From the IMG/VR virus record IMGVR_UViG_3300005253_000004, positions 55,471 to 119,470 of that record: 64,000 nt of DNA. One strand, given 5' to 3'. Position numbers and translations under genes: made by a program. Below the pieces are notes generated by a model. The model searched no databases. It was given only the letters and a program-made list of their open reading frames with translations, and had not been told where the DNA came from. Positions 18,678 through 30,186 of this stretch are shown here, piece by piece; the stretch's first letter is position 1, and every line of letters starts with the position of its first letter. This stretch comes from a virus.

Positions 18678-18707
18678 TGGTTTTTCTCCATTCGCTCGAC
18701 ATACAGC

Positions 18708-19058
18708 TTACTTGATTTCGGGCAGGTTGTCAAGTCCACCTCCCTTGGTGTCGTACTGTAGGCTATAGAGTGTAACCCCAAAGAGGTTCGTCTCCTCTTT
18801 GAGTACACCCTTAGCTATGTACTCGTCCTTGATGATGGTGAACTCCTTGCTGGTGCAACCGCAATGCTTTCGTATGTCCTCCTCGTCAAGAGCAGCACCT
18901 CCACCCTTGACAACCACCGCCTCCAAGAACATGTACCTGTTGAACACACCGTGTGTGATAGCCGGAGGCATCGCCTTCATCAGCCCTTCGATTGCCTCAG
19001 TCACCACCGGGTTGAGGGTAGGTCCTTGGCACGCCTCTGCTTCTGCTCGTTCACTCAT
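18708..19058 (-). CDS. Hypothetical protein, possible winged helix
   Basis: 116 aa. After a 30-residue lead, helices and a strand pair (FNRYMFLEAVV ... DEEDIRKHCGCTSKEFTIIKDEYIAKGVLKEE) look like a small winged-helix fold, ending in a beta hairpin (LFGVTLYSLQY). This is a fold guess from the sequence pattern. Its start overlaps the next gene upstream. Confidence 0.5.
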   Translation of the reverse strand: MSERAEAEACQGPTLNPVVTEAIEGLMKAMPPAITHGVFNRYMFLEAVVVKGGGAALDEEDIRKHCGCTSKEFTIIKDEYIAKGVLKEETNLFGVTLYSLQYDTKGGGLDNLPEIK

Positions 19059-19333
19059 CCCGACACCTCAAGGCAGTACTGGTACAAGGGGCGCTGCCGT
19101 TGGTTGGTATGCATCCTACCCGTGCCGACCTTGCGTGCCTTACGGTCACGGGACTCAGCCCTTGCGTTCTCTTTTTCCAAGAGATTAGAAACAAGCGCAT
19201 GACCTATCGGGATCTCGGTTGCCGGATCCTCCTCTCCGTAGTGGTCGATGTACCTGTGTGTGGGCATCTGATGTATCTTCTTGCACACCCGACACCGCCT
19301 TGTAACATAGACACGGAACTTAACTTTCGTCAT
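19055..19333 (-). CDS. Small basic CxxC protein
   Basis: 92 aa. RRCRVCKKIH near residues 12-21 is a zinc-knuckle-like site, and the rest is Arg/Glu-rich helix (ENARAESRDRKARK). It likely binds nucleic acid (inference). A GGGAG site precedes ATG 19333. Confidence 0.5.
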   Translation of the reverse strand: MTKVKFRVYVTRRCRVCKKIHQMPTHRYIDHYGEEDPATEIPIGHALVSNLLEKENARAESRDRKARKVGTGRMHTNQRQRPLYQYCLEVSG

Positions 19334-19360
19334 GTCGTTCTCCCTTTCTGTGGTTGTACC

Positions 19361-19525
19361 TTACACCTTCTTAGGATAGAAGTGATCTCGTAGATCAAAC
19401 TTATCATCCTCATCGCAATGCTTCTGCCAATGGAAATCACACACACTAACACACCGAGTGCGCTTTTTGAAGGCAGCGTACTCTAAGTAGAAGAATCGTC
19501 TACACCTCTTAACATCACAGTTCAT
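19361..19525 (-). CDS. Small Cys/His-rich protein, 54 aa
   Basis: The start is ATG 19525, overlapping the upstream stop (ATGA), rather than the longer frame. Cys residues and HWQKHC give a candidate metal site, e.g. CDVKRC, CVSVCDFHWQKHC. Function unknown. Confidence 0.5.
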   Translation of the reverse strand: MNCDVKRCRRFFYLEYAAFKKRTRCVSVCDFHWQKHCDEDDKFDLRDHFYPKKV

Positions 19526-19752
19526 TGTCCCTTCTCTCTGTTCTTCTTGATTAGTTTGTTGGCGTAGTCTTGAAACCACTCAGCCCATTCTTCATCCTCG
19601 ACCCAAGTATGGTCCTCTTCACGTTGGGCAACGTGGAGGCAGAACATATTGAATACTGAGTCCACTTCAGGCTCAGACTCAAGGCAAAACTCCAACAAAT
19701 CCAACACCTTACGCCGGTGCTTGTCCATCAAGGGCTTGCGTGTGATACTCAT
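19522..19752 (-). CDS. Hypothetical acidic helical protein, 76 aa
   Basis: Unrecognised. Mostly helical and acidic, with Trp-rich EDHTWVEDEEWAEWFQDY in the C-terminal half. Ends in a basic KKNREKG tail. Overlaps the membrane microprotein upstream. Confidence 0.5.
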   Translation of the reverse strand: MSITRKPLMDKHRRKVLDLLEFCLESEPEVDSVFNMFCLHVAQREEDHTWVEDEEWAEWFQDYANKLIKKNREKGQ

Positions 19753-19844
19753 AGCACTGTACTACACAGCGCACCTGCTATAGCGATGAACGCCAACTCC
19801 CCGAGGAGTATGATCCAACCACTCGCTCGCTGTAGTCTACTCAT
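19749..19844 (-). CDS. Membrane microprotein, 31 aa
   Basis: ATG 19844 overlaps the upstream stop (TGATG) and follows GAGGGG. After a short basic lead, one hydrophobic helix fills the chain (GWIILLGELAFIAIAGALC). One of nine such tiny membrane genes in this region. Real by position and overlap; function unknown. Confidence 0.5.
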   Translation of the reverse strand: MSRLQRASGWIILLGELAFIAIAGALCSTVL

Positions 19845-20068
19845 CACACATCCCCTCTGAATGATGCTGACTTTTCCCACTCAACAGCCACCTCAACGAT
19901 GGACCCTGCATCAATACCACCAGCAAGACGCTGCGCTTCCTTGCAATGCCCATGCCCGCTGAAGATGAGCTTCTTTAGTTGCTGTTCATTGGTACGCTTG
20001 CCCCGCTCAGCTTGTCGTGCCTCTGCTGCTGTGCGTCGTGCCTCCTTAGCAACTCTACCTTTTCTCAT
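19844..20068 (-). CDS. Hypothetical basic protein, 74 aa
   Basis: The N-terminal half is a strongly basic, Ala-rich helix (KEARRTAAEARQAERGKR). The C-terminal half contains FSGHGHCKEAQRLAGG. It may bind nucleic acid (inference). It overlaps the upstream HTH gene. Confidence 0.5.
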   Translation of the reverse strand: MRKGRVAKEARRTAAEARQAERGKRTNEQQLKKLIFSGHGHCKEAQRLAGGIDAGSIVEVAVEWEKSASFRGDV

Positions 20069-20252
20069 CGTCCTCGTCCTTTCTTGTCTCTACGCTGTGA
20101 AGTATCTCTTTCTGTAGGCTATCGGGCTGTGTCACCTTGCGTACCCGGCGTAGCCCTGCCTCATCGGGGCGTCCGATCTTGCGTGCTATCTGCTCGTCAG
20201 TCATCCCTTTCAGTGCCATCTTCTTGATCCGCTCGTCGGTTTGATTGAACAT
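20055..20252 (-). CDS. Small helix-turn-helix protein, 65 aa
   Basis: ATG 20252 is chosen because GGAGAAAG precedes it. The first 45 residues look like a helix-turn-helix: DERIKKMALKGMTDEQIARK followed by a recognition-like RRVRKV. The tail is acidic. Possible DNA-binding regulator. Its start is nested inside the end of the membrane gene upstream. Confidence 0.55.
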   Translation of the reverse strand: MFNQTDERIKKMALKGMTDEQIARKIGRPDEAGLRRVRKVTQPDSLQKEILHSVETRKDEDDEKR

Positions 20253-20571
20253 CTTTCTCCTCCGCAACCCGCATCGCCTGTGTCAGCTCAAGTTCGACCT
20301 CTTTCATGGTAGCATGGAAAGCTTCGGTTGCTTCCTTGATCCTCTGCTCTTGGTCATTGGTGAGCTTCACGCTGACTTTATTGGTGCTTTTGTTTTTGAG
20401 GGCTTTGCGTGCCTTGTACACCCACCACATAACACACGCAGCCATTGCGATAGCCCAGCCTGTGCTTGGGTCCTCGTCGCTCAACTGCAAGACCATAGCC
20501 AGTAGGCACCACACCGCTGCGAACAGCGCACCTTGGAATGTTTCGAACCATGTAAAAAACCTGTGAAACAT
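20197..20571 (-). CDS. Two-helix membrane protein
   Basis: 124 aa. Two hydrophobic segments at about 12-32 (GALFAAVWCLLAMVLQL) and 39-55 (WAIAMAACVMWWVY), then a basic turn and a long charged helix. The topology is holin-like, but it is not near the lysis genes, so its role is open. Confidence 0.55.
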   Translation of the reverse strand: MFHRFFTWFETFQGALFAAVWCLLAMVLQLSDEDPSTGWAIAMAACVMWWVYKARKALKNKSTNKVSVKLTNDQEQRIKEATEAFHATMKEVELELTQAMRVAEEKDVQSNRRADQEDGTERDD

Positions 20572-20575
20572 TACG

Positions 20576-20746
20576 TCACTCCTCTTTGTCTGTCAAAGCA
20601 AGCACGTCTGTCACGTACCTAAGGCACGATGGGTGGTGATCGTTGATACAACCAACATCATCGCATCCGTTTACTCTGCTCTTGAAGCACGCTATTACAC
20701 CCAAGAGACAGGTTCGTATCGCTTTGTACTTCTCTTTGTCTGTCAT
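20576..20746 (-). CDS. Small Cys-rich protein, 56 aa
   Basis: ATG 20746 overlaps the stop of the membrane microprotein upstream (ATGA). Contains several Cys (RTCLLGVIACF, GCDDVGC, HHPSC) that could form disulfides or a metal site. Function unknown. Confidence 0.45.
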   Translation of the reverse strand: MTDKEKYKAIRTCLLGVIACFKSRVNGCDDVGCINDHHPSCLRYVTDVLALTDKEE

Positions 20747-20850
20747 ATACTTATGCCGCCTGTGATTCGGGTGAACATTGATGTGATCTGCTCTGCGTAA
20801 TGGACATGAGCAAGCCACCCTAGTACTACTCCGACGATCAGTCTTAGCAT
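20743..20850 (-). CDS. Membrane microprotein, 35 aa
   Basis: ATG 20850 overlaps the upstream stop (TAATG) with AGGAG upstream; it ends by overlapping the next start. One hydrophobic helix (LRLIVGVVLGWLAHV) then a polar tail. Confidence 0.5.
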   Translation of the reverse strand: MLRLIVGVVLGWLAHVHYAEQITSMFTRITGGISI

Positions 20851-21257
20851 TACTTATCTCCTTCCTCTTTGAATGTGAACGAGTAGCTCTTGCCATCGAC
20901 AATGCACAGTGCTTCCTTTTCCTTCTTCTTCTGCTCCTTTAGGTGCTTGGCGAGGCTCTTGTCGTATGCCTTCTTGTTCTTGCTGGTCCACTCAACGAGG
21001 TAGTCCACCACATCGAGTGCCGAGTGGCAGCACGCATTACAGACATGGTGTCTTTCCAGATTCCACTGGTTGTTTGGGTGCGTCCACGAGCAGTACCTAG
21101 TGGGTCCGACCTCCCACTGAGCCATGAAGTATGTCTCGTCACGCAACCAATCTTGGCACCGCTCACACTGGACCCAGTATTTCTCTTTCTCCTTCCACTC
21201 CGACTGGTTGATCTCTTTGATCTCGGCCGCTTGGTGATGCCGTGTGTCTAGTCTCAT
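20850..21257 (-). CDS. Zinc-finger-like protein, 135 aa
   Basis: ATG 21257 overlaps the upstream stop. CERCQDW near residues 32-38 and HHVCNACCHS near 71-80 form a likely four-ligand metal site about 40 residues apart. The C-terminus is a Lys/Glu-rich helix. Resembles small phage HNH or zinc-ribbon proteins without catalytic residues. Confidence 0.55.
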   Translation of the reverse strand: MRLDTRHHQAAEIKEINQSEWKEKEKYWVQCERCQDWLRDETYFMAQWEVGPTRYCSWTHPNNQWNLERHHVCNACCHSALDVVDYLVEWTSKNKKAYDKSLAKHLKEQKKKEKEALCIVDGKSYSFTFKEEGDK

Positions 21258-21403
21258 CACTTCTCCTCATTGGACAACGAGCCATCGCTCTTGCTCATGT
21301 AACAGTCACCGATGGCCTTCATCGGTGCGTAACACCACGCGCATGGTTGGTTGTTCTTCACGCATTGTGCCTCATGGTGGCATTCAGTGCAATGTATTGT
21401 CAT
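21257..21403 (-). CDS. Small Cys-rich protein, 48 aa
   Basis: ATG 21403 follows GGAGGTAGT. HCTECHHEAQC and CAWCYAP give two candidate metal-binding pairs. The CAWC...P spacing is faintly like the family's CxxC-Pro helix, but no Trp strand is present. Function unknown. Confidence 0.5.
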   Translation of the reverse strand: MTIHCTECHHEAQCVKNNQPCAWCYAPMKAIGDCYMSKSDGSLSNEEK

Positions 21404-21404
21404 A

Positions 21405-21476
21405 CTACCTCCGTGCTGTGACGGTAAAGAACAACCAAGATACCAAAACAATTCCTACAAAATGATACCACTCCAT
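21405..21476 (-). CDS. Membrane microprotein, 23 aa
   Basis: ATG 21476 has a TGGAG site upstream, and the stop overlaps the ribosome site of the next gene. Almost entirely one hydrophobic helix (FVGIVLVSWLFFTV) with a basic end. Very short, so only tentative. Confidence 0.35.
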   Translation of the reverse strand: MEWYHFVGIVLVSWLFFTVTARR

Positions 21477-21491
21477 AGCGTACTCCAGTGA

Positions 21492-21560
21492 CTATGATGC
21501 TTCATGCAGCATAGACCAATGGCTACAAGGCCCGGAGACCCCGTGCCATTGAGCTATGCT
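21492..21560 (-). promoter_or_regulatory. CATAG switch-like RNA element, copy 1
   Basis: On the minus strand GCATAG-CT-CAATGGC pairs with GCCATTG-GT-CTATGC across a 21-nt loop: 6 bp, a 2x2 internal loop, then 7 bp. The 3' CTATG can instead pair with a downstream CATAG (loop GCATGAAG). The two hairpins are mutually exclusive. The element lies between the GKARW gene and the microprotein start. Confidence 0.6.
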
Positions 21561-21561
21561 A

Positions 21562-21948
21562 CTAGCTGGCCTTGAAAGTACCGGCCTTGTTCTTCGTGCC
21601 CATCACCACAAAGCTCGGAACGTGCTCAGACTGGATACTCCAAGCACCTTCGCTCTTTGAGAAACGAGCCTTGCCTCGGCCAGATGCACCGAAGCGGATC
21701 TTCTTGATCTCTTTCAGCACGGCCTCGGCCTCCGGGTTACCCCGAGGTGAACCGAGCGGCATGTCATTGGAGTCCACGAACTCCATGAATACGTACTCCG
21801 TGCCGTACTCGTCGCTGTTCTTGTCGTTCCGGTACCCGATGACTCGTCCGAAACTCCCTTTGGACTTCGGGCTTTCGCTCTTCTTGATGAAGGCTTCGAG
21901 GCGAGCGAGTTCCGCTTTCTGCTGCTTGAGTGTCATCTTCTTGGGCAT
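21562..21948 (-). CDS. GKARW-family small protein, paralog A
   Basis: 128 aa. Helical N-terminus (LKQQKAELARLEAFIKK), a strand pair (YVFMEFV), then the signature IRFGASGRGKARFSK and W..Q...PSFVVMG. It is paralogous to 27835-28128 and 28412-28708. Function unknown; the basic GRGKAR segment could touch nucleic acid (inference). It has its own promoter and structured leader. Confidence 0.65.
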   Translation of the reverse strand: MPKKMTLKQQKAELARLEAFIKKSESPKSKGSFGRVIGYRNDKNSDEYGTEYVFMEFVDSNDMPLGSPRGNPEAEAVLKEIKKIRFGASGRGKARFSKSEGAWSIQSEHVPSFVVMGTKNKAGTFKAS

Positions 21949-21961
21949 TTGGATCTCCTAT

Positions 21962-22056
21962 TGAGGGCCTCTAGTGTGGCACTATGCCTCACTAGCTAAC
22001 CCTCAGCGTGCTGGTCCCATTGACCAACACATCCATTGAGGCACACCACCTCAATG
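21962..22056 (-). promoter_or_regulatory. Three-hairpin leader RNA
   Basis: Read leftward: CATTGAGG/CCTCAATG (8 bp, 22056-22034), TGTTGGTC/GACCAGCA (8 bp, one wobble, 22029-22009), and a long branched stem TGAGGG...CCCTCA enclosing CTAGTG/CACTAG and GGC/GCC (22005-21962). All lie between the promoter at 22080-22108 and the gene at 21948. Confidence 0.65.
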
Positions 22057-22079
22057 AATCTGCCGGTCGATCTGCCTAC

Positions 22080-22108
22080 ATTTTGACATAACTTGAGCAG
22101 GTTGTCAA
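22080..22108 (-). promoter_or_regulatory. Sigma-70-like promoter, TTGACA-N17-CAAAAT
   Basis: Minus strand TTGACA (22108-22103), 17-nt spacer, CAAAAT (22085-22080). The -35 is a perfect consensus; the -10 is 4/6. Expected start near 22073, leaving a leader of about 125 nt containing three hairpins. Confidence 0.5.
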
Positions 22109-22239
22109 CTCACCTCCTTAGCATTACAGTCAGTGCAAGTGTGCTTCCTCCCTGTCCAATGATAGTAGCAGCCAACGGAACAGATAAAATCATACCTTCT
22201 GACCGGATAGAATACCCACGGATACTGAAGGACCTTCAT
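22105..22239 (-). CDS. Small CxxxC/CxxC protein, 44 aa
   Basis: ATG 22239 follows a TGAGGTG site. The chain has CSVGC (20-24), His27 and CTDC (35-38), a four-Cys arrangement that could bind zinc. Aromatic-rich N-terminus (YPWVFYPVRRY). Function unknown. Confidence 0.5.
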   Translation of the reverse strand: MKVLQYPWVFYPVRRYDFICSVGCYYHWTGRKHTCTDCNAKEVS

Positions 22240-22249
22240 AAACGACACC

Positions 22250-22480
22250 TCAGCCAGTATCATACGCACCCTTCCTTCGTACCACGTTGTGCATCGTCAC
22301 ACCAGACACCTTGTAATGGGTGGCTAGGGCCTTGAGTGTAGTACCCTCGACGAAGAACTCCTTGCGGCACCGAGCCACCTGTGAGGGTGTCAGCTTCTTT
22401 CCCTTGTCTTTGGAACTCATGTTCTTGTTCAGACCAAGCAAGTGCATGGCTTCTCCTATTTCGATGGGCTTGTGTCTCAT
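22250..22480 (-). CDS. Helix-turn-helix protein, 76 aa
   Basis: The C-terminal half is an HTH: KLTPSQVARCRKEFF, TTLKALATHYKVS, VTMHNVVRRKGAY, much like the DNA-binding tails of HNH homing nucleases. The N-terminus contains AMHLLGLNKN. Likely DNA-binding. AAGGAGCTGAA precedes ATG 22480, the same leader as the next two genes. Confidence 0.65.
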   Translation of the reverse strand: MRHKPIEIGEAMHLLGLNKNMSSKDKGKKLTPSQVARCRKEFFVEGTTLKALATHYKVSGVTMHNVVRRKGAYDTG

Positions 22481-22490
22481 TTCAGCTCCT

Positions 22491-22805
22491 TCAGTCGTCG
22501 TTCATGTTACGGCCACAGAATATACGCAGCCACCAAGGCTTGCGAAGCTTCTTGAACACCGCTCTACCACAAGCGCAGTGCCAATCTACCCAGTGCCAAT
22601 CTACCCACCACCCAGGCCACCGCTCTCTCAAGGATCTGACTATTCTCTCCGCCGGTTCAGCAGTTAGATAATCATAGAACAGTACCTCTCCAGCCATGTA
22701 AACGGAGTTCTTACAAGGTTTGTACTTTTGTGCCTTGTCATAATCATGCGCTGCACACAAGCACTCGACGTTGCAGCTTACATCCTCCGATAGATTGTGT
22801 CTCAT
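22491..22805 (-). CDS. Hypothetical protein with WVDWH repeat
   Basis: 104 aa from ATG 22805, preceded by AAAGGAGCTGAA. The N-terminal half is Cys-rich (CNVECLCAAHDYDKAQK). A 15-bp tandem duplication gives WVDWHWVDWHCACG, then a basic Trp-rich end. Function unknown. Confidence 0.5.
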   Translation of the reverse strand: MRHNLSEDVSCNVECLCAAHDYDKAQKYKPCKNSVYMAGEVLFYDYLTAEPAERIVRSLRERWPGWWVDWHWVDWHCACGRAVFKKLRKPWWLRIFCGRNMNDD

Positions 22806-22818
22806 TTCAGCTCCTTTC

Positions 22819-22938
22819 TTACAGTACACTGAGTAGCAAGCAGGCTAGCACACCTAGTAATGCGGCGCGTAGCCGTAGTATTGTATCTCGGTTCTTGAAT
22901 CTTTCTCCTATGACCTCAAGCAACTGTTCATCGCTCAT
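22819..22938 (-). CDS. Membrane microprotein, 39 aa
   Basis: ATG 22938 follows AAAGGAGCTAAA. Amphipathic N-terminus (MSDEQLLEVIGERFKN), C-terminal transmembrane helix (ALLGVLACLLLSVL). Tail-anchored layout. The ATG chosen removes a 31-residue extension without ribosome site. Confidence 0.55.
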   Translation of the reverse strand: MSDEQLLEVIGERFKNRDTILRLRAALLGVLACLLLSVL

Positions 22939-22939
22939 T

Positions 22940-23128
22940 TTAGCTCCTTTTACACACTCTGGAGAAGCATAGCTTAGCAGACGAGGACAGTCCTCGTTGC
23001 GTAGAGTCAGTGCAGACCTTGCCTCTCTCATAGGTGATGATGTTGCCTAATCTTTGGTTCTCTTCGATGTCGAGGCAGCAGCCTGAAATCCAAGGCAGCA
23101 GCAGCAGTACAACGATCAGGTATCTCAC
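22940..23128 (-). CDS. Small lipoprotein, 62 aa
   Basis: GTG start at 23128 overlaps the upstream stop (TAGTG) and follows GAGGAG. A signal helix (RYLIVVLLLLPWISGC) ends in a lipobox-like ISGC. The mature part is about 45 residues with further Cys. An exported lipoprotein; it could be an outer-membrane spanin or an envelope-exclusion factor (inference). Confidence 0.6.
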   Translation of the reverse strand: MRYLIVVLLLLPWISGCCLDIEENQRLGNIITYERGKVCTDSTQRGLSSSAKLCFSRVCKRS

Positions 23129-23424
23129 TATGTCTCCTCGTTCTCGCAACGGTTGCCATACCAAACCAACTCTTGCATTCCTATTACTTGGTCGGGTGCT
23201 GACTCTCCGCACACCTGACAAGACCAGCCCTCCTTGAAATCGTAGTTGCAGTAGGCATACACAGAGTCTACTGAGTTGGCTTCGGTACATCTTGCATCAT
23301 TAATGTGCTTGTGTCTAGCACCAGCATTCCATTGGCGTCCCATGTGCCGATACCTATGGATCACCCAGTTATCTTCCAAATCTAGGTAGGTATCCTCTAT
23401 AAAGCTTTTGAAGTGCCTGCTCAC
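23128..23424 (-). CDS. W-HxC-CxxC family small protein, copy 15
   Basis: 98 aa. LEDNWVIHRY strand, RHKH (HxH variant), CQVC, then SAPDQVIGMQELVWY. Acidic C-terminal tail. Extra Cys at ARC and AYC in the loop. Function unknown. Confidence 0.78.
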   Translation of the reverse strand: MSRHFKSFIEDTYLDLEDNWVIHRYRHMGRQWNAGARHKHINDARCTEANSVDSVYAYCNYDFKEGWSCQVCGESAPDQVIGMQELVWYGNRCENEET

Positions 23425-23591
23425 TGTATCTCCAAATCATTCCAATGAAAGTTCGGATGACATGCCAAGATACCAGCACGGTACGCCAACACTATGGCAT
23501 CATCCATGTCACACTCCAAAGCAGCTAGATTCTGTTTTGCTACCTCTGCCTTGAGTTGTTTGATCTTTGCTGCCAGTGTGTCGTTGTCCAT
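23421..23591 (-). CDS. Small helical protein, 56 aa
   Basis: ATG 23591 follows GGGAGAAGTAAC, the same leader as at 15871. N-terminal Lys/Ala coiled coil (AAKIKQLKAEVAKQN), then a Cys/His-bearing tail. Like 15764-15871 it follows a W-HxC-CxxC copy ending in WEK, so the two-gene unit was probably duplicated. Confidence 0.5.
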   Translation of the reverse strand: MDNDTLAAKIKQLKAEVAKQNLAALECDMDDAIVLAYRAGILACHPNFHWNDLEIQ

Positions 23592-23592
23592 G

Positions 23593-23841
23593 TTACTTCT
23601 CCCATGCACACAGGTTGATGAGCCCTTTGAAATGCTCGGGTATCTCAGCCATGCATACACTACATTGGACTTCACGCTTCAAAGCAGCCCCGTAGCACAG
23701 CGTGTCACAGTGGTGTAGATAATACCATGCTTCGTTGGATGGTGGATACTTTGTATCTCGGGTATACTTTATTATACCCCAACCATCAACCAATGGTGTC
23801 TTAGTAAAAACTAAGCCGGTTACGACAAGACCATGAGTCAT
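23593..23841 (-). CDS. W-HxC-CxxC family small protein, copy 16
   Basis: 82 aa. VDGWGIIKY strand, LHHC, CSVC, then EIPEHFKGLINLCAW. Ends in WEK, as copy 11 does. Function unknown. Confidence 0.8.
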   Translation of the reverse strand: MTHGLVVTGLVFTKTPLVDGWGIIKYTRDTKYPPSNEAWYYLHHCDTLCYGAALKREVQCSVCMAEIPEHFKGLINLCAWEK

Positions 23842-24023
23842 TCAGTCACCTCGATCTTAGCTACACGGTGCCAGAACACAGCACCGTACCTTTGCTTAGC
23901 CCCTTCGGCTAGCCACACATGGGCTTGGCCCTCGTTCTTGAACCCCGACTCGATGATGACCTGAGTACAAGTCACCTCGCCGGTAACATCCTTGTCCTCC
24001 AGAGTGAAGATTACTTTAGCCAT
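23838..24023 (-). CDS. Hypothetical protein, 61 aa
   Basis: Start at ATG 24023 (MAKVIFTLED), overlapping copy 17. It looks like a small alpha/beta protein: ITFTLED-like strand, CTQVIIE, helix GQAHVWLAEGAKQRYG, strand AKIEVTE. Unrecognised. Confidence 0.55.
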   Translation of the reverse strand: MAKVIFTLEDKDVTGEVTCTQVIIESGFKNEGQAHVWLAEGAKQRYGAVFWHRVAKIEVTE

Positions 24024-24288
24024 CACTGACCCCTTTGGCACCTGCCATGAGCAGCACCATCAAGCCTTGTATCTCATCAGGCACGGGCTCTTCGCAGTAG
24101 TAACAAACACACGGATCGTCGGAGGTGAACCATGCGTAGCTTCCAGGTCGAACAGTTGTGTTTTTGGATAGCTTACGTACCTTACTGTAAACTTTGAGGT
24201 CACACTTATGGTTTGCATAGTACTCAAACAGGTGCTCTTCTTCGTTATTTATGATGTTCCAATTACCTAGAGTAAACAAGGCCATCAC
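24016..24288 (-). CDS. W-HxC-CxxC family small protein, copy 17
   Basis: 90 aa. TLGNWNIIN strand, ANHKC, a Lys-rich loop, CYYC, then PVPDEIQGLMVLLM. The helix lacks the usual terminal Trp. Function unknown. Confidence 0.78.
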   Translation of the reverse strand: MMALFTLGNWNIINNEEEHLFEYYANHKCDLKVYSKVRKLSKNTTVRPGSYAWFTSDDPCVCYYCEEPVPDEIQGLMVLLMAGAKGVSDG

Positions 24289-24295
24289 CTGTCTC

Positions 24296-24451
24296 CTACC
24301 CCCTGTTGAGGTACTCGGCCATAGCTAAGGCACCTACCTCATCGTCCCATTTGTCATACACCACCAAGCCACCCGTTGTATCATCTTGAAGCACAACAAG
24401 GTACTTGTTGGCTCCCGTTGCCACCTTGACCGTCAACACGTAGTACTCCAT
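24296..24451 (-). CDS. Small hypothetical protein, 51 aa
   Basis: ATG 24451 has a near-perfect AAAGGAGG site. Sequence begins MEYYVLTVKVATGANKYLVV and reads as two beta strands, a turn (DDTTGG), another strand and a C-terminal helix. Unrecognised. Confidence 0.6.
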   Translation of the reverse strand: MEYYVLTVKVATGANKYLVVLQDDTTGGLVVYDKWDDEVGALAMAEYLNRG

Positions 24452-24531
24452 GTTACCTCCTTTGTTGACCTGTATTCTACGAAATTGGCCCGTCTAGTAC
24501 GAATACAGTGGCCTGTCGTACAGGCATGTCA

Positions 24532-24882
24532 TCAAACTTCTCCATGCTGTTCAATCACAGTGTTGATAACCAACAAGTCACCCTCAGCACGGAGCTTGCT
24601 ACCCTCAGCATAGAGCTTTTCACCCTCAGCACGGAGCTTGCTACCCTCAGCATGGAGGTTTTCACCCTCAGCATAGAGCTTGCTCCCCTCAGCATGGAGG
24701 TTTTCACCCTCAGCATAGAGCTTGCTCCCCTCAGCATGGAGGTTTTCACCCTCAGCATAGAGCTTGCTCCCCTCAGCACGGAGCTTGCTACCCTCAGCAT
24801 AGAGCTTGCTCCCCTCAGCATAGAGCTTGCTCCCCTCAGCACGGAGGTTTTCACGTCGTTTCTTTGCTTCTTTGATTGTCAT
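24532..24882 (-). CDS. Heptad-repeat protein (LxAEGSK repeats)
   Basis: 116 aa. After MTIKEAKKRREN come about 13 seven-residue repeats of the form L-(Y/R/H)-A-E-G-(S/E)-(K/N). Each is 21 bp. The regular Leu spacing suggests a long helix or coiled coil. Similar AEGxKL repeat proteins occur in many phages with unknown function. The 21-bp repeats vary in two positions, so copy number may change between strains. Confidence 0.7.
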   Translation of the reverse strand: MTIKEAKKRRENLRAEGSKLYAEGSKLYAEGSKLRAEGSKLYAEGENLHAEGSKLYAEGENLHAEGSKLYAEGENLHAEGSKLRAEGEKLYAEGSKLRAEGDLLVINTVIEQHGEV

Positions 24883-24927
24883 GTTATCTCCTATGTTGTA
24901 CTACAGCAGCTCGCAAGGGAACACCCC

Positions 24928-25026
24928 TTACGGCAGAGTGCTACGGTACTCTGAGATGTCGAACGACATCGCAAGGTAGAAAAACCCAGCGACCACAGCT
25001 ATGAACACCGCCATCGCAACCCTCAC
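24928..25026 (-). CDS. Membrane microprotein, 32 aa
   Basis: GTG start at 25026 overlaps the upstream stop (TAGTG). One hydrophobic helix (VAMAVFIAVVAGFFYLAM) near the N-terminus, then a polar end. Tentative but in series with its neighbours. Confidence 0.4.
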   Translation of the reverse strand: MRVAMAVFIAVVAGFFYLAMSFDISEYRSTLP

Positions 25027-25190
25027 TACCACCTACCTCTGACCAGCCCTCGGGACAGGCTGTAGTTCGGATGCACCAGTGTCGGGCTCTTGTCGTTCTC
25101 CAAGTACAACCAGATACCCTTGCTACCCTTGGGACCTCTGGTTGCCAGTCTCAGGGCCTTCTTGAACCACATCGCTTCGATTTGTTTCAT
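25026..25190 (-). CDS. Small basic protein, 54 aa
   Basis: ATG 25190 follows ACGGAGG. Sequence starts MKQIEAMWFKKALRLATRG and is basic throughout, ending RGRW. Overlaps neighbours on both sides. Unrecognised. Confidence 0.5.
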   Translation of the reverse strand: MKQIEAMWFKKALRLATRGPKGSKGIWLYLENDKSPTLVHPNYSLSRGLVRGRW

Positions 25191-25315
25191 GTTACCTCCG
25201 TCTTATCCATGAGTCTCTTCAGACTCTTGAGTTTGCGTATTGCTACCTCTATGCAAGCCCACAGTATAGCAGCAGCACCAACAAATACACCAAGACTAAA
25301 ACAAAACCAGTCCAT
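25187..25315 (-). CDS. Membrane microprotein, 42 aa
   Basis: ATG 25315 overlaps, by its stop (ATGA), the next gene. N-terminal hydrophobic helix (FSLGVFVGAAAILWACI) then a basic helix (AIRKLKSLKRLMDK). Single-pass layout with a cytoplasmic basic tail. Confidence 0.5.
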   Translation of the reverse strand: MDWFCFSLGVFVGAAAILWACIEVAIRKLKSLKRLMDKTEVT

Positions 25316-25316
25316 G

Positions 25317-25598
25317 TCAGCTCTGTACTACATGCTTACAATGGCAGCAACCCTCGGCCTTCACCTCGGATGCCGCTGGGTCGCGCAGGAACTTAGCCCT
25401 GGGGCGTTCTATCACGGTGACGTAGTAGGACATTGATCCTTTGCTTCCAATACCAGGATCACCAGGATCACCAGAGTCCTCACGTTCCCTCATGTTCTTG
25501 ACCATGCGGTTCCGGCACTTGTCGGCCGCTTGGTAGTTATCGAACGGTCCGAGTATGTTGACTCCGGTCCACGTTTGACTTACAATTACATGCTTCAT
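25317..25598 (-). CDS. Hypothetical protein with GDPGDPG turn
   Basis: 93 aa. The N-terminus (HVIVSQTWTGVNILGPFDNY) and the middle (SYYVTVIERP) look like a small alpha/beta domain; a short GDPGDPG repeat sits in the linker and CCHC near the end. Preceded by the CATAG RNA element. Confidence 0.5.
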   Translation of the reverse strand: MKHVIVSQTWTGVNILGPFDNYQAADKCRNRMVKNMREREDSGDPGDPGIGSKGSMSYYVTVIERPRAKFLRDPAASEVKAEGCCHCKHVVQS

Positions 25599-25613
25599 TG
25601 TGTACTCCTGTGG

Positions 25614-25662
25614 CTATGATGCCTCATGCACCATAGACCAATGGCCGAAGCCATTGAGCTAG
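25614..25662 (-). promoter_or_regulatory. CATAG switch-like RNA element, copy 2 (UUCG loop)
   Basis: Minus strand: CAATGGC-TTCG-GCCATTG, a 7-bp stem closed by a stable UUCG tetraloop, extended outward by CCTAG/CTATGG. The 3' CTATG can instead pair with CATAG 13 nt further on. Ends a few bases above the ribosome site of 25317-25598. Confidence 0.65.
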
Positions 25663-25670
25663 GGTGCAAC

Positions 25671-25928
25671 TCAGCTCCTATATATTGAGTCCAACGTCAC
25701 GTTCACCACCATTTCAATTTTCTCTGCCTTCTCAGGTGTTACCCCCAAGAGCCCTTCAAACTCCGTGAAACCATAGCCTATGCCTGTCCTGAACGATACC
25801 TCTTCATTGAACACGATGCCCAACGCAGACCCGTCGCTCTTCAGCGTCATCATAGCCATATCCAGACCGTCAAGCCACCAGCCATCTGGTAGGCTAGGCT
25901 TACAGGTACGACGTACTCCTTGCTTCAT
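25671..25928 (-). CDS. Hypothetical protein, 85 aa
   Basis: Unrecognised. A small mixed domain with WWLDGLDMAMMTLKSDGS and GYGFTEFEGLLG, ending in a helix and strand (KIEMVVNVTLDS). AGGAGG precedes ATG 25928; the leader is the repeated box A. Confidence 0.55.
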   Translation of the reverse strand: MKQGVRRTCKPSLPDGWWLDGLDMAMMTLKSDGSALGIVFNEEVSFRTGIGYGFTEFEGLLGVTPEKAEKIEMVVNVTLDSIYRS

Positions 25929-25948
25929 TGGAGCCTCCTTGCTAGTCT

Positions 25949-26001
25949 CCTGTCAAAGGAAAGGTAGAAAACTGACCGTAAAAGCCCACTATGAGCCCAA
26001 G
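25949..26001 (-). promoter_or_regulatory. Repeated leader box, copy A
   Basis: Minus strand: GGGCTTTTACGGTCAGTTTTCT then TTTCCTTTGACAGGAG, directly above a ribosome site. Shares TTTACGGTCAGTTTTCT with copies B-D. Confidence 0.55.
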
Positions 26002-26208
26002 TCAGCTACCTTCCCTGATGATACGCTTGTTCTCAGCGTCCCACTTGGCAACAGCCGTCTCAGCCTCGTCGAGCGCGTGCTTCACCAATGTGTGTAGCTC
26101 TGTGGGTAGTAGAGTCCAAGGATCCTCAGATACCACCCATTCAGGGTCACAGAACAGCTTTGACTCAGCCTTCATCACTACCAGCTTAAACCTCTGCTTG
26201 GCGGGCAT
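26002..26208 (-). CDS. Hypothetical protein, 68 aa
   Basis: Unrecognised. Strand-rich N-terminus (RFKLVVMKAESKLF) with DPEWVVSEDPWTLLP, then a C-terminal helix (LVKHALDEAETAVAKWDAENK). AGGAGG precedes ATG 26208. Confidence 0.55.
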   Translation of the reverse strand: MPAKQRFKLVVMKAESKLFCDPEWVVSEDPWTLLPTELHTLVKHALDEAETAVAKWDAENKRIIREGS

Positions 26209-26308
26209 GGTACCTCCTCAGGTCCTCATAGAGCCTCACCAAACGTGCCTTCGACGCTATCAGCGCCGCGATCTCAACCTTCAAGGCTTTGATATCCTTA
26301 TCCAACAT
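26186..26308 (-). CDS. Small helical protein, 40 aa
   Basis: ATG 26308 follows AGGAGGTACC. Sequence MLDKDIKALKVEIAALIASK then RLVRLYEDLRRYHARQ: one long amphipathic helix, probably a coiled coil. Its last codons overlap the next gene by 23 bp. Confidence 0.5.
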   Translation of the reverse strand: MLDKDIKALKVEIAALIASKARLVRLYEDLRRYHARQAEV

Positions 26309-26381
26309 GGTACCTCCTATGCTTCGTCCACGCCCAGATCTCGGTTATGCCACCCACAACCACAATCAGTGCTAGTACCAT
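26298..26381 (-). CDS. Membrane microprotein, 27 aa
   Basis: ATG 26381 (or the TTG just before it) sits 9-14 nt below AGGAGG. One hydrophobic helix (VLALIVVVGGITEIWAW) then a basic end. Confidence 0.35.
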   Translation of the reverse strand: MVLALIVVVGGITEIWAWTKHRRYHVG

Positions 26382-26393
26382 CAATCAATCAAT

Positions 26394-26441
26394 CCTCCTG
26401 TCAAAGAAAACGTAACAAACTAACCGTAACAACCCCTACTA
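26394..26441 (-). promoter_or_regulatory. Repeated leader box, copy B
   Basis: Minus strand GTTACGGTTAGTTTGTTACG, then TTTTCTTTGACAGGAGG. The most diverged copy of the box. Lies above microprotein 26298-26381 and supplies its AGGAGG. Confidence 0.45.
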
Positions 26442-26621
26442 GACCCACCCCCTCAATACCCTAAGCTGGGACAAGCACACTTCTCTGTTCCTATAGGCCA
26501 GAGCTAACTGCTGCTCTCTCACCCCAGCGATGCACAGTCGAACGTCCTGCCAGTAATCAATGCCTCTGCTGAACCACTTTACACCCATCAGAAGCTCTCG
26601 GATCAGGCTGTCGTGCATCAT
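26439..26621 (-). CDS. Small helical protein, 60 aa
   Basis: GGAGG precedes two adjacent ATGs at 26621/26618. Sequence MMHDSLIRELLMGVKWFSRG then YWQDVRLCIAGVREQQLALAY: two helices, basic at the end. Unrecognised. Its leader carries CATAGCTCAATG, the left half of the CATAG element. Confidence 0.5.
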   Translation of the reverse strand: MMHDSLIRELLMGVKWFSRGIDYWQDVRLCIAGVREQQLALAYRNREVCLSQLRVLRGWV

Positions 26622-26659
26622 GGTGCCTCCTTATCACCTCCCTGAGTCATTGAGCTATG

Positions 26660-27043
26660 TTATAGGAGACCCTTCAACTGTTCCATCAGGAACAATCTCG
26701 GAGCGAGGATGATCTTTGCCACGGTGAACAGACAGACAAGGAACCCAGCAAGCGTAGCCCCACCACCGAAGAGCCCCAGCATGAAGGCAAAGCACGGATC
26801 TTCGCCGTTCTTTGATGTATCGAGGATGCGCCACAGCTTCACAGTTGCGTACATCACACCACCAAACGCCAAGCCCCAGAACACACTCCAGACTCCGTTG
26901 TAGAACAAACTGTAGGTCAGGATCTCTTGGACCAGCAGCGGAGCCTGCTCCACTACGAAGCTCTCCGTTGATTCCACATACTCCATGACCTTGGCGATGG
27001 CCTCGCCGCCTTGTACCAGCAGTTTCTCAGTGACCTCGTTCAT
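26660..27043 (-). CDS. Multi-pass membrane protein
   Basis: 127 aa. After a 45-residue amphipathic N-terminus there are two to three hydrophobic segments, about 50-68 (GVWSVFWGLAFGGVMYATV) and 85-110 (FMLGLFGGGATLAGFLVCLF). The N-terminal helix (LVQEILTYSLFYNG) resembles small phage membrane proteins. Candidate holin or envelope protein; no lysis gene nearby. Confidence 0.6.
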   Translation of the reverse strand: MNEVTEKLLVQGGEAIAKVMEYVESTESFVVEQAPLLVQEILTYSLFYNGVWSVFWGLAFGGVMYATVKLWRILDTSKNGEDPCFAFMLGLFGGGATLAGFLVCLFTVAKIILAPRLFLMEQLKGLL

Positions 27044-27050
27044 TTTGTAC

Positions 27051-27110
27051 TCCTATGGCAAAGAAAACCAAAATTACATTAAAAACCCCTAGTACCCACT
27101 AAGAGCCCAA
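27051..27110 (-). promoter_or_regulatory. Repeated leader box, copy C
   Basis: Minus strand: TAGTGGGTACTAGGGGTTTT, TAATGTAATTTTGGTTTTC, then TTTGCCATAGGAG. Ends in the ribosome site of the membrane gene 26660-27043. Confidence 0.5.
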
Positions 27111-27112
27111 TG

Positions 27113-27322
27113 CTACTTCTCGACGAAGATCTGGCCCCGACTGTCAACCAGAAGCCCCGTCACTGTCTCATTGACCCCTGCGACAAGGCGTACTACGTTG
27201 CTGTTGTTCGTGAATGCCAGCACAAGGTACCCATTGACAATCACATTCACACCTAGAGCCGTGTTCTCCAGCTCCACCTTACCCAGAGGCTCTGCTACCT
27301 CTTCCTTCGTTACGAATCTCAT
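27113..27322 (-). CDS. Hypothetical beta-rich protein, 69 aa
   Basis: Unrecognised. Mostly alternating strands: VNVIVNGYLVLAF, NVVRLVAGVNETVTG, GQIFVEK. Suggests a small beta-barrel or sandwich. Its leader is the CATAG element copy 3. Confidence 0.55.
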   Translation of the reverse strand: MRFVTKEEVAEPLGKVELENTALGVNVIVNGYLVLAFTNNSNVVRLVAGVNETVTGLLVDSRGQIFVEK

Positions 27323-27337
27323 AATACTCTCCTGTGG

Positions 27338-27466
27338 CTATGATACCTCATGCATCATAGACCAAGAACACAGAGCCAAAGCAAGCATACTCGGAGTCAC
27401 TCAAGCAACAACGCTCCACTTGAGGCTAGCCTTTCGCCCTTCGACCCTGCGCCCTTGGTCTATGCT
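27338..27466 (-). promoter_or_regulatory. CATAG switch-like RNA element, copy 3
   Basis: Minus strand: CATAGACCAAG (from 27463) pairs perfectly with CTTGGTCTATG about 100 nt later (11 bp). The same CTATGAT can instead pair with ATCATAG just downstream (7 bp). Then CCACAGGAG leads into gene 27113-27322. Confidence 0.6.
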
Positions 27467-27528
27467 GCTCAGATCAATTGTCGAGCTTCTCCTCTGTGCC
27501 GTGCTCCATGTATAGCTTATACGCTTGG

Positions 27529-27630
27529 TTATGGACCAAATGGAACGCCCATAAGCCAGCCAAAGGCCCAGGTAACACCGCTGATAACGACTACATTGAT
27601 GAAAGACACCGGATTTCCGAACTCGTACAT
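27529..27630 (-). CDS. Membrane microprotein, 33 aa
   Basis: ATG 27630 follows ATAGGAGATTGAAC. Sequence begins MYEFGNPVSFINVVVISGVT and continues hydrophobic (WAFGWLMGVPFG). An overlapping frame (GTG start) also stays open, so the exact product is uncertain. Confidence 0.4.
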   Translation of the reverse strand: MYEFGNPVSFINVVVISGVTWAFGWLMGVPFGP

Positions 27631-27638
27631 GTTCAATC

Positions 27639-27742
27639 TCCTATGGCAAAGGAAAAGCAGAAAACTGACCGTAAATACCCCTACAACATAGACCAAAGGC
27701 TACAGAGCCTCTAGTACCGCCTCTGCGCCCTTGAGCTATGTT
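27639..27742 (-). promoter_or_regulatory. Composite leader: CATAG hairpin (copy 4) plus leader box D
   Basis: Minus strand: ACATAG-CT-CAAGGGC pairs with GCCTTTG-GT-CTATGT (27742-27685). Box D follows at once: GGGGTATTTACGGTCAGTTTTCT, TTTTCCTTTGCCATAGGAG. Here the CATAG that can compete for CTATG lies inside the ribosome site. Only place where both element types join. Confidence 0.6.
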
Positions 27743-27757
27743 ACTTCGGGGGTCAGC

Positions 27758-27838
27758 CTAACCTCCCATGAGGTATTCTAGCCCTCTGATGGCTGTGTAG
27801 ACTATGACTCCGAGGCATATGATCTCGAAGAGACTCAA
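27758..27838 (-). CDS. Possible membrane microprotein, 26 aa
   Basis: TTG start at 27838 overlaps the upstream stop (TTGA). One hydrophobic helix (SLFEIICLGVIVYTAI) then GLEYLMGG. No clear ribosome site, so weakly supported. Confidence 0.25.
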   Translation of the reverse strand: MSLFEIICLGVIVYTAIRGLEYLMGG

Positions 27839-28128
27839 GACCCGAACACGGTGCCCTTGAGAGCCGATGCCTTGATGCTCCAGAGGCTATCCTCGCGGCA
27901 CCAACGCGCTTTGCCCCGTGACGAAGCGCCGTAGCGGATCGCCTTGAGCTGCTTACGCAGCTTCAGGTCGTCCTTGGGGATGCTGACGAACACGTACCGC
28001 TCACCGTAGGCCTCGGTGTTCTTTGCGTTCTCAGTGATAACGATGCCATTGTCCTTGCCAGCAGCGGCTATGACGGCATTGAGCTTCTTCAGCTCTTTGT
28101 GTGCTGCCTTCAGTTCGGTCTTGGTCAT
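27835..28128 (-). CDS. GKARW-family small protein, paralog B
   Basis: 97 aa. MTKTELKAAHKELKKLNAVI start, then ERYVFVSIPK, LKAIRYGASSRGKARW and LWSIKASALKGTVFG. Very similar to paralog C, including the first residues and the GTVFG end. Function unknown. Confidence 0.65.
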   Translation of the reverse strand: MTKTELKAAHKELKKLNAVIAAAGKDNGIVITENAKNTEAYGERYVFVSIPKDDLKLRKQLKAIRYGASSRGKARWCREDSLWSIKASALKGTVFGS

Positions 28129-28361
28129 TATGTCTCCTTTTTAGTGAACCCCAAGTTGATCTCTCTGTCCCATCGTTGCTTCGTGAGCCTACGATGTTGT
28201 CGCTCTGCTACCGCGACCCTGTGCTGTTGAGCCTCCACCGCAGCTTTCAGAGTCTCCAGCTTGGTGCTTTGTACCTCGATCCTGGCTTCTTGGCGTCTGA
28301 GGTTGTCACACGCTCTGACGTACAAGTCCATAGGGCTTTCTCTCTTGGAGAGTTTATACAT
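28128..28361 (-). CDS. Basic coiled-coil protein, 77 aa
   Basis: Arg/Gln-rich helix throughout: DNLRRQEARIEVQSTKLETL then AVEAQQHRVAVAERQHRRL. Predicted coiled coil with positive charge. CCTGTGGCCTT leader with AGGAGG. Unrecognised. Confidence 0.55.
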   Translation of the reverse strand: MYKLSKRESPMDLYVRACDNLRRQEARIEVQSTKLETLKAAVEAQQHRVAVAERQHRRLTKQRWDREINLGFTKKET

Positions 28362-28411
28362 TTAGGCCTCCTGTGGCCTTGGACAAGGGGGCGAAAGGTC
28401 AATGAATCCGG

Positions 28412-28708
28412 TTACTTGCCGAACACGGTGCCTTCAAGGGCCGAAGTCAAGACGCTCCAGGCAACTTCGTCCTTGTTCCAGCGGGCCTTACCGTGCGCAA
28501 ACCGGCCCCAACGCAGCGCCTTGATCTGCTTACGCAGCTCCGTGGAGGTCTTGGGGATCTTCACGAAGCTATAATCACCGAATTCGGCGTTCTTCGCGTT
28601 GACGTAGACCTCGATCTCCGTGTTGCCTTCGGCAATCTCGTGCTTTGCGATGAAGGCATTGAGTCGTTTGAGGTCAGCCTTAGCCTTGCGCAGTTCTGTC
28701 TTGGTCAT
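28412..28708 (-). CDS. GKARW-family small protein, paralog C
   Basis: 98 aa from ATG 28708 (MTKTELRKAKADLKRLNAFI), chosen for its AGGAG site; a longer frame to 28786 lacks one. Signature LKALRWGRFAHGKARWNK and AWSVLTSALEGTVFG. First gene of the long leftward transcript, about 57 nt below a promoter, so probably expressed early (inference). Confidence 0.68.
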   Translation of the reverse strand: MTKTELRKAKADLKRLNAFIAKHEIAEGNTEIEVYVNAKNAEFGDYSFVKIPKTSTELRKQIKALRWGRFAHGKARWNKDEVAWSVLTSALEGTVFGK

Positions 28709-28771
28709 TATGTTCTCCTGTCGGGGTATAGTGTTACCGTAGCAGCGGACTGCCCGCCGCTCGACAAAACG

Positions 28772-28800
28772 AGTATCGCACGTCAAGTCGAGAAAGTCAA
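28772..28800 (-). promoter_or_regulatory. Sigma-70-like promoter, TTGACT-N17-GATACT
   Basis: Minus strand TTGACT (28800-28795), 17-nt spacer, GATACT (28777-28772). Located at the head of the 28-kb leftward gene array, with no plausible alternative gene upstream. Probably read by host sigma-70. Confidence 0.6.
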
Positions 28801-29355
28801 ATCCTCAACAAAATCAACTACTTACACGACCGACTTGCCGGTTCATACATGGTAAACCCCCCGCTAAGCTGCTGTTAATAACACTTTTTAGTGATACTGT
28901 TTAGTACTGATAATACCCTAGACAGGACGTGGGGTTACAGCAATAGTGCTTCAATGCCGTGGAGTTACAGCCTTGAGTACCTACTACTGTTTCCAAGGGG
29001 GGGGTGGGTCTATTGGTGTTGCCATCAGCTTAATATATCCAACTAGATCGCGGGGTTAGCCCAATCTGTGTAGTTTTAGACCCTTTTTGCTCTTTATGTG
29101 CTTTAATTAGACCGGTCATTCGCAAGAATGCCTTTATTTACGTGTACTTAGCCTTATTCCTTAGTGTATACCCACAAGAACCCAGAGGACAAGAGGTCTA
29201 GAGAGCCTAAGTAGTGGTTATAACGTACACATGGGGGTTTATGGTGGTAGTAGGGGTGTTTATGGTAAGTGTTCGTTGTTTCTTACGAATCTCTTGACTT
29301 GGTTGAGTCCGGACTCGGGTATCAGACCCCCGAAAAGGGGCCATTTAGGTGTTAT
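28801..29355. other. Gene-free region with short direct repeats, possible origin or control region
   Basis: No convincing open frame. Contains CGTGGGGTTACAGC (28928) and CGTGGAGTTACAGC (28958), 30 bp apart, and CGCGGGGTTAGCC (29049). Also GGGGTTTATGGT twice (about 29232 and 29254), a perfect 12-bp palindrome GAGTCCGGACTC (29305-29316) and a GACCCC-GAAA-GGGGCC hairpin (29325-29342). AT-rich in the middle. Function inferred only from the repeats. Confidence 0.4.
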
Positions 29356-29670
29356 TTAGGGGGCTTTTTGAGCAATTTGCATTATGGCGTACGCATGTTC
29401 TGATTCGAGCATCAAATACAAACATTCCAGCTCCTCCGGAGGCGATCTCAGACAGCGGGAGCAAGCCCAGCAGGGATCGGGGTGTCTTGCTCTCATGGGG
29501 AACTCGGCGTTCAAGTACAATACTAGTAGGTACTCAAGGCCCCCTTTGAGCACCGGTTGGCACAGGTGGTACATGTGGTGTAACCCCGAAACACTCGAAA
29601 CACTCGATTTCGCTATCACCCAGTCGTTCATTTCGAGCTTGATTTTTAGTCTGGAGCCGTCTTTAGTCAT
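29356..29670 (-). CDS. W-HxC-CxxC family small protein, copy 18
   Basis: 104 aa; last gene of the dense array. MNDWVIAK strand, YHLC, an extra Cys before CSRC (PCWACSRC), then SPPEELECLYLML. A 20-residue helical tail follows. The stop runs into a GC-rich hairpin. Function unknown. Confidence 0.75.
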   Translation of the reverse strand: MTKDGSRLKIKLEMNDWVIAKSSVSSVSGLHHMYHLCQPVLKGGLEYLLVLYLNAEFPMRARHPDPCWACSRCLRSPPEELECLYLMLESEHAYAIMQIAQKAP

Positions 29671-29912
29671 GCTCCCTCCTTCAAGAACCAGAACATGGCC
29701 TGGATGCCCTCCGGAGGAGCCTCCCTACATGCGAAACACGGGATACCCCGGTAGCAAAGACCGTAAACGAACGGATGCCATTCCAAATCGCTTCCGCATT
29801 TATGCCTACTGCAGGAACCACGGCATCTATGCTCGATGCTGATCGCCCGGATGGAGTTCAAATTGCGCCAGGCAAGCCGGAATGCCCCGATAGTGATTAG
29901 AGGCTCAGTCAT
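29667..29912 (-). CDS. W-HxC-CxxC family small protein, copy 19
   Basis: 81 aa. IGAFRLAW replaces the GDW strand (Phe first, Trp later). EHRC, CFAC, then APPEGIQAMFWFLKEG. Ends right after the helix. ATGA overlaps on both sides. Confidence 0.78.
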   Translation of the reverse strand: MTEPLITIGAFRLAWRNLNSIRAISIEHRCRGSCSRHKCGSDLEWHPFVYGLCYRGIPCFACREAPPEGIQAMFWFLKEGA

Positions 29913-30183
29913 TTTCCCTCCTAGAGTCCATATCTCCGGTCAGCATGACAAACAGCGCCTGAAGACCCTCAGGGACACGGGAGTGACATTGCGTGCAAGG
30001 ATATTGGAAGTACCGATAGATGTCTCGCCGAGCTGTCCACCACGAATGTTCACAGTTATGCCACAGATAATACAAGTAAGGGGTTCCTTGCTGGTGTTCT
30101 GGCGTTCCTTCTGTTTGCTCGTACAGCCCCCACCCTGCTTCAAAGGCGATGGGGTCAGGTTGCGGTTTCGGTTCAGTATCCAT
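29905..30183 (-). CDS. W-HxC-CxxC family small protein, copy 20
   Basis: 92 aa. EAGWGLYE strand, LWHNC, CTQC, then RVPEGLQALFVMLTGDM. The LTGDM ending is shared with copy 25. Pro-rich lead. Function unknown. Confidence 0.8.
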   Translation of the reverse strand: MDTEPKPQPDPIAFEAGWGLYEQTEGTPEHQQGTPYLYYLWHNCEHSWWTARRDIYRYFQYPCTQCHSRVPEGLQALFVMLTGDMDSRREND

Positions 30184-30186
30184 AGT

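Follow-up and report, generated by a model that had tools for sequence, protein, structure and literature searches.

A repeated hairpin between small phage genes

A 119,470-base record of an uncultured virus (IMGVR_UViG_3300005253_000004, here G000) contains a region of small genes between which the same RNA hairpin recurs. The window analysed is the 64,000-base stretch 55471-119470 of that record, and genes called at about 16-33 kb of it lie on the minus strand. Four copies of the hairpin (W1-W4) are read on this minus strand, the coding strand, and are therefore transcribed in sense orientation; a fifth, half-copy retains the 5′ arm alone. A preliminary description of the window had already placed all five here. 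Each copy consists of outer pairs, a segment P1 (CATAG/CTATG), a C·U mismatch with a U·G pair, a segment P2 (CAAxGGC/GCCxTTG) and, beyond a single bulged base in most copies, a third paired segment, P3. In W1-W3 this long hairpin is followed by a second one, P4, which uses the 3′ arm of P1 as its own 5′ arm, and then by 4 bases, the ribosome site and the start codon. Distances are in nucleotides (nt).

21506..21562, minus: W1, long hairpin P1-P3; CATAG 3 nt from the stop codon of gene 21562-21948
21492..21514, minus: W1 P4, CTATGCTGC-ATGAA-GCATCATAG; 8 of 9 pairs; exclusive with P1; TGGAG ribosome site 4 nt downstream, start codon 21476
25628..25667, minus: W2, long hairpin with UUCG loop and outer pairs TGCACC/GGTGCA, without P3
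25614..25636, minus: W2 P4, CTATGGTGC-ATGAG-GCATCATAG; 9 of 9 pairs; AGGAG 4 nt downstream, start codon 25598
26650..26659, minus: half-copy, 5′ arm CATAGCTCAA alone, directly behind the stop codon of gene 26660-27043
27352..27469, minus: W3, about 33 pairs including outer and inner extensions; large apical domain
27338..27360, minus: W3 P4, CTATGATGC-ATGAG-GTATCATAG; 9 of 9 pairs; AGGAG 4 nt downstream, start codon 27322
27684..27743, minus: W4, long hairpin P1-P3 with no adjoining P4; followed by a second repeated leader (family 2)

The stem CATAG..CAAxGG of the preliminary description is present and continues upwards as P3, except in W2, where the UUCG loop closes it. What had been described as a 2x2 CU/GU internal loop is in fact one C·U mismatch beside a U·G wobble, and W3 is fully paired at this place (A-U, C-G). 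With all segments counted, the helix spans about 17-33 base pairs (bp) as read from the folds, and it stays long although loop, inner and outer letters vary. The outermost pairs extend in three copies with different letters (GTAGC/GCTGC, TGCACC/GGTGCA and AAC/GTT), the apical loops are not conserved among copies, and the upper stem varies, with the lower stem TAG-CT-CAA / TTG-GT-CTA nearly invariant.

Recurrence in related phages

We sought relatives of the window phage by protein, using its ATPase, its terminase and the product of gene 21562-21948. Near and distant DNA searches among named phages returned no relative; in the same set the terminase had a single weak protein match and the ATPase many distant ones, and the protein search with gene 21562-21948 found no relatives. 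Two uncultured records are related to it: G002 (IMGVR_UViG_3300037246_000990, 119,599 bases), whose ATPase is 97% and terminase 90-91% identical, and the more distant G003 (49 kb), whose terminase is 74% identical. Coordinates in these two records refer to locus L018 of G002 and locus L030 of G003.

G002 holds four copies (R1-R4) in the same region as in the window phage; in R4 a C·C takes the place of the C·U mismatch. When both strands of 180,091 bases were searched with a covariance model built from R1-R4 alone, its first four matches were W4, W1, W2 and W3 (E 1.9e-13, 1.8e-11, 3.9e-6 and 4.1e-5), and its antisense matches were the same places read backwards with lower scores. With all four window copies heading the list of a model made only from the relative's copies, the repeats are not due to chance. 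Next came Q1 (E 0.05), immediately ahead of a gene in the small-gene region of G003. Searched against whole records, a second model built from six copies found four places in G000 and four in G002, and none at E up to 10 in G003 or in a further 16.6-kb record, G001; searched against loci, it gave one weak place in G003, again Q1 (E 0.65), which may be a diverged copy.

The strict pattern including P4 had no match in viral contigs, the stem pattern matched only in G002, and a looser stem pattern added two further contigs, which the covariance model left unscored. The element pattern had no match in bacterial genomes, and Rfam 15 models had no match at gathering score anywhere in the window; with E up to 1 allowed, they still had none on the elements of L018, L030 and window 16000-34000. 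A literature search, in which subscription journals were thinly covered, turned up no description of this element. Sliding 80-nt folding picks out only W1, R1 and R3 among the copies; being a peak of stability is thus not common to all of them.

Pairing is maintained in the RNA

To describe the pairing we read the pair columns directly from the eight copies, giving 25 columns (18 in W2) and 193 cells. Of these cells 176 hold standard pairs, 151 Watson-Crick and 25 G·U, and 17 hold other combinations, none of them A·C; 11 columns contain a G·U and no column an A·C, and both sides have changed in 5 of the 25. P4 in its six copies repeats this picture, with 44 Watson-Crick, 8 G·U, 0 A·C and 2 other cells among 54. 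In the six-copy alignment 98.2% of 114 cells are paired, falling to 20-53% once the partner is slid, and the covariation score exceeds all of 500 shuffles; doubly changed pairs number three, which is not above shuffles (220 of 500). The copies are kin, so none of these pairing and covariation counts represents independent events. The 25 G·U as against 0 A·C cells, together with the double changes, demonstrate that the stem is a sense-strand RNA structure under selection, kept by compensation. Compensatory changes in relatives, by which the preliminary description proposed to test its hairpins, are thus found in P1-P3 and in P4.

A second, exclusive hairpin

P4 is present in six of the eight copies (W1, W2, W3, R1, R3 and R4). 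The leader RNA with two mutually exclusive hairpins ahead of small genes, as first described, is borne out, and the second hairpin was rightly seen in W1-W3, although it is 9 bp long rather than CTATG/CATAG alone. Segment 2 (CTATG) can thus pair with segment 1, the upstream CATAG, or with segment 3, the CATAG downstream. The same 1-2-3 layout recurs with mostly different letters in Q2 of G003, which the covariance models missed and which was spotted by eye: a helix of about 23 bp (GCCATAGCC.../...GGCTATGGC), then P4 (CTATGGCA/TGCCATAG), AAGGAG and a start codon. A scan for this layout, written after the copies had been seen and so not an independent test, gave four sense matches at its first setting (one, two and one in three regions; Q2 was among them, without mismatch), with none antisense and none in 48 shuffled sequences. 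At a looser setting it returned nine matches in 33.2 kb of sense strand, six of them W1, W2, W3, R1, R3 and Q2 and three outside the elements (2-3 mismatches), and missed R4; antisense matches were 0, shuffle means summed to 0.4, and 250,940 control strand bases held eight matches with 2-3 mismatches.

Partition-function folding of seven RNAs at 37 °C, a temperature from which the host's may differ, predicts P1 with a probability of at least 0.90 in six of the intact RNAs; the seventh, R3, is predicted to form P4 instead (0.95). When the 5′ arm is removed, P4 is predicted at 0.91 or more in all seven. On passing to P4, predicted exposure of the Shine-Dalgarno sequence rises in two RNAs, is unchanged in two and falls in three, and that of the start codon rises in W3, R1 and R4 and is the same or lower in the other four. 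No T tract follows P4. The preliminary description had suggested an attenuator or a protein-binding RNA switch controlling small genes; with the first form predicted to prevail in six of seven RNAs and exposure shifting inconsistently, an on/off attenuator of the ribosome site has so far found no support, although a protein-bound switch is still conceivable. The folding lends nothing to a uniform on/off switch and fits instead a fallback hairpin that forms once the upstream part is lost.

Copies lie at joints between differing genes

By the coordinates, the 5′ arm starts close behind the upstream stop codon in several copies (W1 3 nt, W2 8 nt, R3 and the half-copy 0 nt) and at greater distance in others (W3 63, W4 94, R1 89 and R2 47 nt). 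R4 begins 6 nt behind a tRNA-His gene in G002, and Q2 about 2 nt behind a tRNA-Ile gene in G003. Where a copy adjoins a tRNA, the transcript must be split into tRNA and message; this fits a processing site and does not fit control by an upstream ribosome.

Comparison of the flanking genes indicates that the copies mark joints at which relatives differ in their neighbouring genes. Upstream of R1 lies the homologue of the gene upstream of W4 (69/101 identical) and downstream of R1 that of the gene downstream of W3 (32/67 identical), so the window's extra segment sits exactly between two copies. W1 and R4 stand behind homologous genes, with the tRNA intervening for R4, and ahead of different ones; W2 and R3 stand ahead of homologous genes (26/87 identical) and behind different ones, and the gene upstream of W2 has a homologue elsewhere in G002 (37/88) with other sequence after it. 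Over the 56 nt of the hairpin, R1 and R3 do not differ. The copies may have caused gene exchange by recombination or been used in it.

A proposed portable processing and leader cassette

We tentatively favour reading the element as a portable intercistronic cassette for RNA processing and leader formation, whose 5′ end refolds after a cut, and give this a rough probability of 0.42. The reading draws on the pairing counts, the long helix, the P4 predicted in seven of seven RNAs without the 5′ arm, the tRNA-adjoining copies, the differing joints and the precedent of the R1.1 signal of phage T7. A long imperfect RNA helix in intercistronic space, as expected of an RNase III signal, is indeed what the copies form. 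Long messages of the small-gene region would traverse P1-P3 between a stop codon or tRNA 3′ end and the next ribosome site, and a host double-strand-specific nuclease of RNase III type would cut the long helix. With the 5′ arm lost, the freed 3′ arm (CUAUG...) would pair with the CAUAG just downstream, and the new message would start with P4, set about 4 nt ahead of the ribosome site, its 5′ end protected and standardised. Each small gene could then act as an independent unit at any insertion site and, with genes independent wherever they are inserted, the copies could double as homology patches for exchange between relatives.

Several observations weigh against this reading. A search of G000, G002 and G003 for a phage RNase III gave no match although its controls matched, so the enzyme would have to be the host's. 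The lower stem is nearly invariant (13 of 19 pairs show no change in the six-copy alignment), a degree of conservation beyond the needs of a double-strand cutter, for which gene conversion among the copies could nevertheless account. W4 and R2 lack an adjoining P4 and carry a different repeated leader instead, and in three of the seven RNAs P4 is predicted to leave the ribosome site less exposed. Cleavage, the nuclease, protection of the 5′ end and use of the copies in recombination we infer; the structure itself, the exclusive hairpins, their position and recurrence, and the gene differences at the joints were computed directly.

In a bolder form of the proposal, which seems to us rather unlikely, the three segments make up a previously undescribed device in which cleavage of the first hairpin takes the place of a ligand or a stalled ribosome as the trigger for forming the second; one mobile element would then join processing, 5′-end protection and ribosome access and allow genes to be swapped as self-contained units. 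Small accessory genes are numerous in phages and change hands between relatives, and how they come to be correctly expressed wherever they land is not well known; a hairpin that both makes genes independent messages and marks exchange points would answer both questions. The compensatory changes make the element testable with short RNAs in vitro.

Alternative explanations

We rank message processing with a refolded 5′ end above a translational switch, in which CTATG would pair with segment 1 or segment 3 to set access to the ribosome site, triggered by an upstream ribosome, a ligand or a protein. Such a switch would account for the 1-2-3 layout in six of eight copies and its return with other letters in G003, for the greater start-codon exposure of W3, R1 and R4, and, since a ribosome terminating there could sit over segment 1, for the placing of W1, W2, R3 and the half-copy 0-8 nt behind a stop codon. 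Shine-Dalgarno and start-codon exposure nevertheless move in no common direction, R4 and Q2 lie behind tRNA genes with no upstream ribosome, and W4 and R2 have no P4 to switch to, which makes this explanation unlikely.

The near-invariance of the lower stem beside a variable upper stem would also be expected of an RNA operator, bound at the lower stem and its C·U mismatch by a phage or host protein that represses or protects the message. Yet the mismatch is lost in W3 and is a C·C in R4, Q2 retains little of the lower-stem sequence, and a search for a RegA-type regulator, run without a positive control, found none; we consider an operator quite improbable. Less probable again is a mobile or duplicated hairpin of little function, kept by gene conversion or merely as homology for recombination. 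The identity of R1 and R3, the existence of a half-copy and the differing joints fit such a hairpin, whereas compensatory and wobble-keeping changes in P1-P3 and P4 are unexpected without selection on RNA.

Very unlikely is a DNA-level signal (promoter, operator palindrome or terminator), since the absence of A·C beside 25 G·U cells is not what a DNA palindrome would give; no sigma-70-like site lies on any copy, although a phage-specific promoter is still conceivable, and a single terminator-like match overlaps the 3′ half of W4 in a region whose nine such matches are close to the 6.3 of shuffles. In its favour, the motif repeated after W4 and R2 may be a promoter, and imperfect inverted repeats before start codons in cluster K mycobacteriophages have been proposed as DNA-binding sites (PMC3203893). 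Three narrower candidates were rejected: an intrinsic terminator (no T tract, one weak overlap at W4, none on R1-R4), a riboswitch with a ligand pocket (apical loops not conserved) and a tRNA-like origin, suggested by the likeness of the 5′ arm to a tRNA D-arm (TAGCTCAATGG, shared with the G002 tRNA-Thr), although the D-stem partner is not preserved and tRNA prediction places none on any copy.

Neighbouring features

Other repeated elements accompany the hairpin in these regions. The family 2 leader (TACTAGGGGTATTTACTGTAAGTTT..., some copies ending TTTGCCATAGGAG) stands ahead of small genes and may act as a promoter or operator of the phage. Two copies of a third repeated hairpin, GGAGAGCGAAGCTCTCC / GGAGAGCGTAGTTCTCC then AAGGCCACAAGAGG, occur in G002 only, and the small-gene region of G003 holds further strong intergenic hairpins, mostly without the CATAG core.

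Window 27686, 27094, 26441 (minus) and 29248 (plus); L018 8594, 9134, 10551 (plus) and 12572 (minus): family 2 leader
L018 8437 and 9072: third repeated hairpin
L030 14320-14240, 12325-12260 and 11100-10960 (minus): regions of the intergenic hairpins Q1, Q3 and Q4

A sigma-70-like promoter with TG before the second hexamer (window 21955-22108, minus; L018 10928-11085; 10 and 11 of 12 matches) sits at matching places in both phages, followed by a strongly structured leader (folding z -6.9 and -6.4) and gene 21562-21948. Many paralogous small proteins encoded at window 16380-33600 (minus) end in CxxC...P(E/D)xIQ...W-like motifs and are probably zinc-binding, and G003 encodes a similar set. The protein of window 24532-24882 (minus) consists largely of repeats of AEGSKLYAEGENLH. 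Very short open reading frames (23-33 amino acids) with one hydrophobic stretch lie behind leaders at window 21405-21476 and 27529-27630 (minus) and L018 10606-10683, and the frame at window 2588-3841 (minus) encodes what we take, from the look of its sequence, to be an RtcB-type RNA ligase.

Comparison with known systems

Beside the ribosome site of erm-type translational attenuators, segment 2 has two possible partners, segments 1 and 3. The element described here likewise has alternative hairpins sharing segment 2 at that position; unlike those attenuators, it has no leader peptide common to all copies, two copies follow tRNAs, and masking of the ribosome site is inconsistent.

Like the copies here, the PeSLs of T4-like phages and the inverted-repeat motifs of HGTV-1 are intergenic stem-loop cassettes at sites of gene shuffling, as given in secondary mentions (PMC4503421, PMC3950731). 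According to these mentions PeSLs carry an early promoter and the HGTV-1 motifs a TATA-like box, whereas no sigma-70-like promoter lies on the copies here. The SAS and ESAS repeats of cluster K mycobacteriophages, of which a recent survey exists (PMC12699233), are inverted repeats whose arms stand a variable distance apart, placed immediately before the ribosome sites of assorted phage genes (PMC3203893); the layout here is similar. The consensus differs: in place of the 13-bp SAS GGGATAGGAGCCC at the ribosome site (PMC3203893), the leaders here read CCACAGGAGTACACAATG and similar. The authors state there that departures in the ESAS arms generally do not support RNA pairing (PMC3203893), whereas the arms here compensate and a second, exclusive hairpin is present.

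Between two early genes of T7, the R1.1 RNase III signal forms a structured RNA of 60 nt (PMC6121014). T7 RNase III signals share with the copies here an intergenic RNA of about 60 nt in a polycistronic phage message and a long helix with internal mismatches (PMC6121014). The likeness is structural, with no sequence homology seen, and here cleavage would follow by analogy. Features of the present element that do not figure in the passages cited on R1.1 are P4 beside the ribosome site and a lower-stem sequence repeated from copy to copy.

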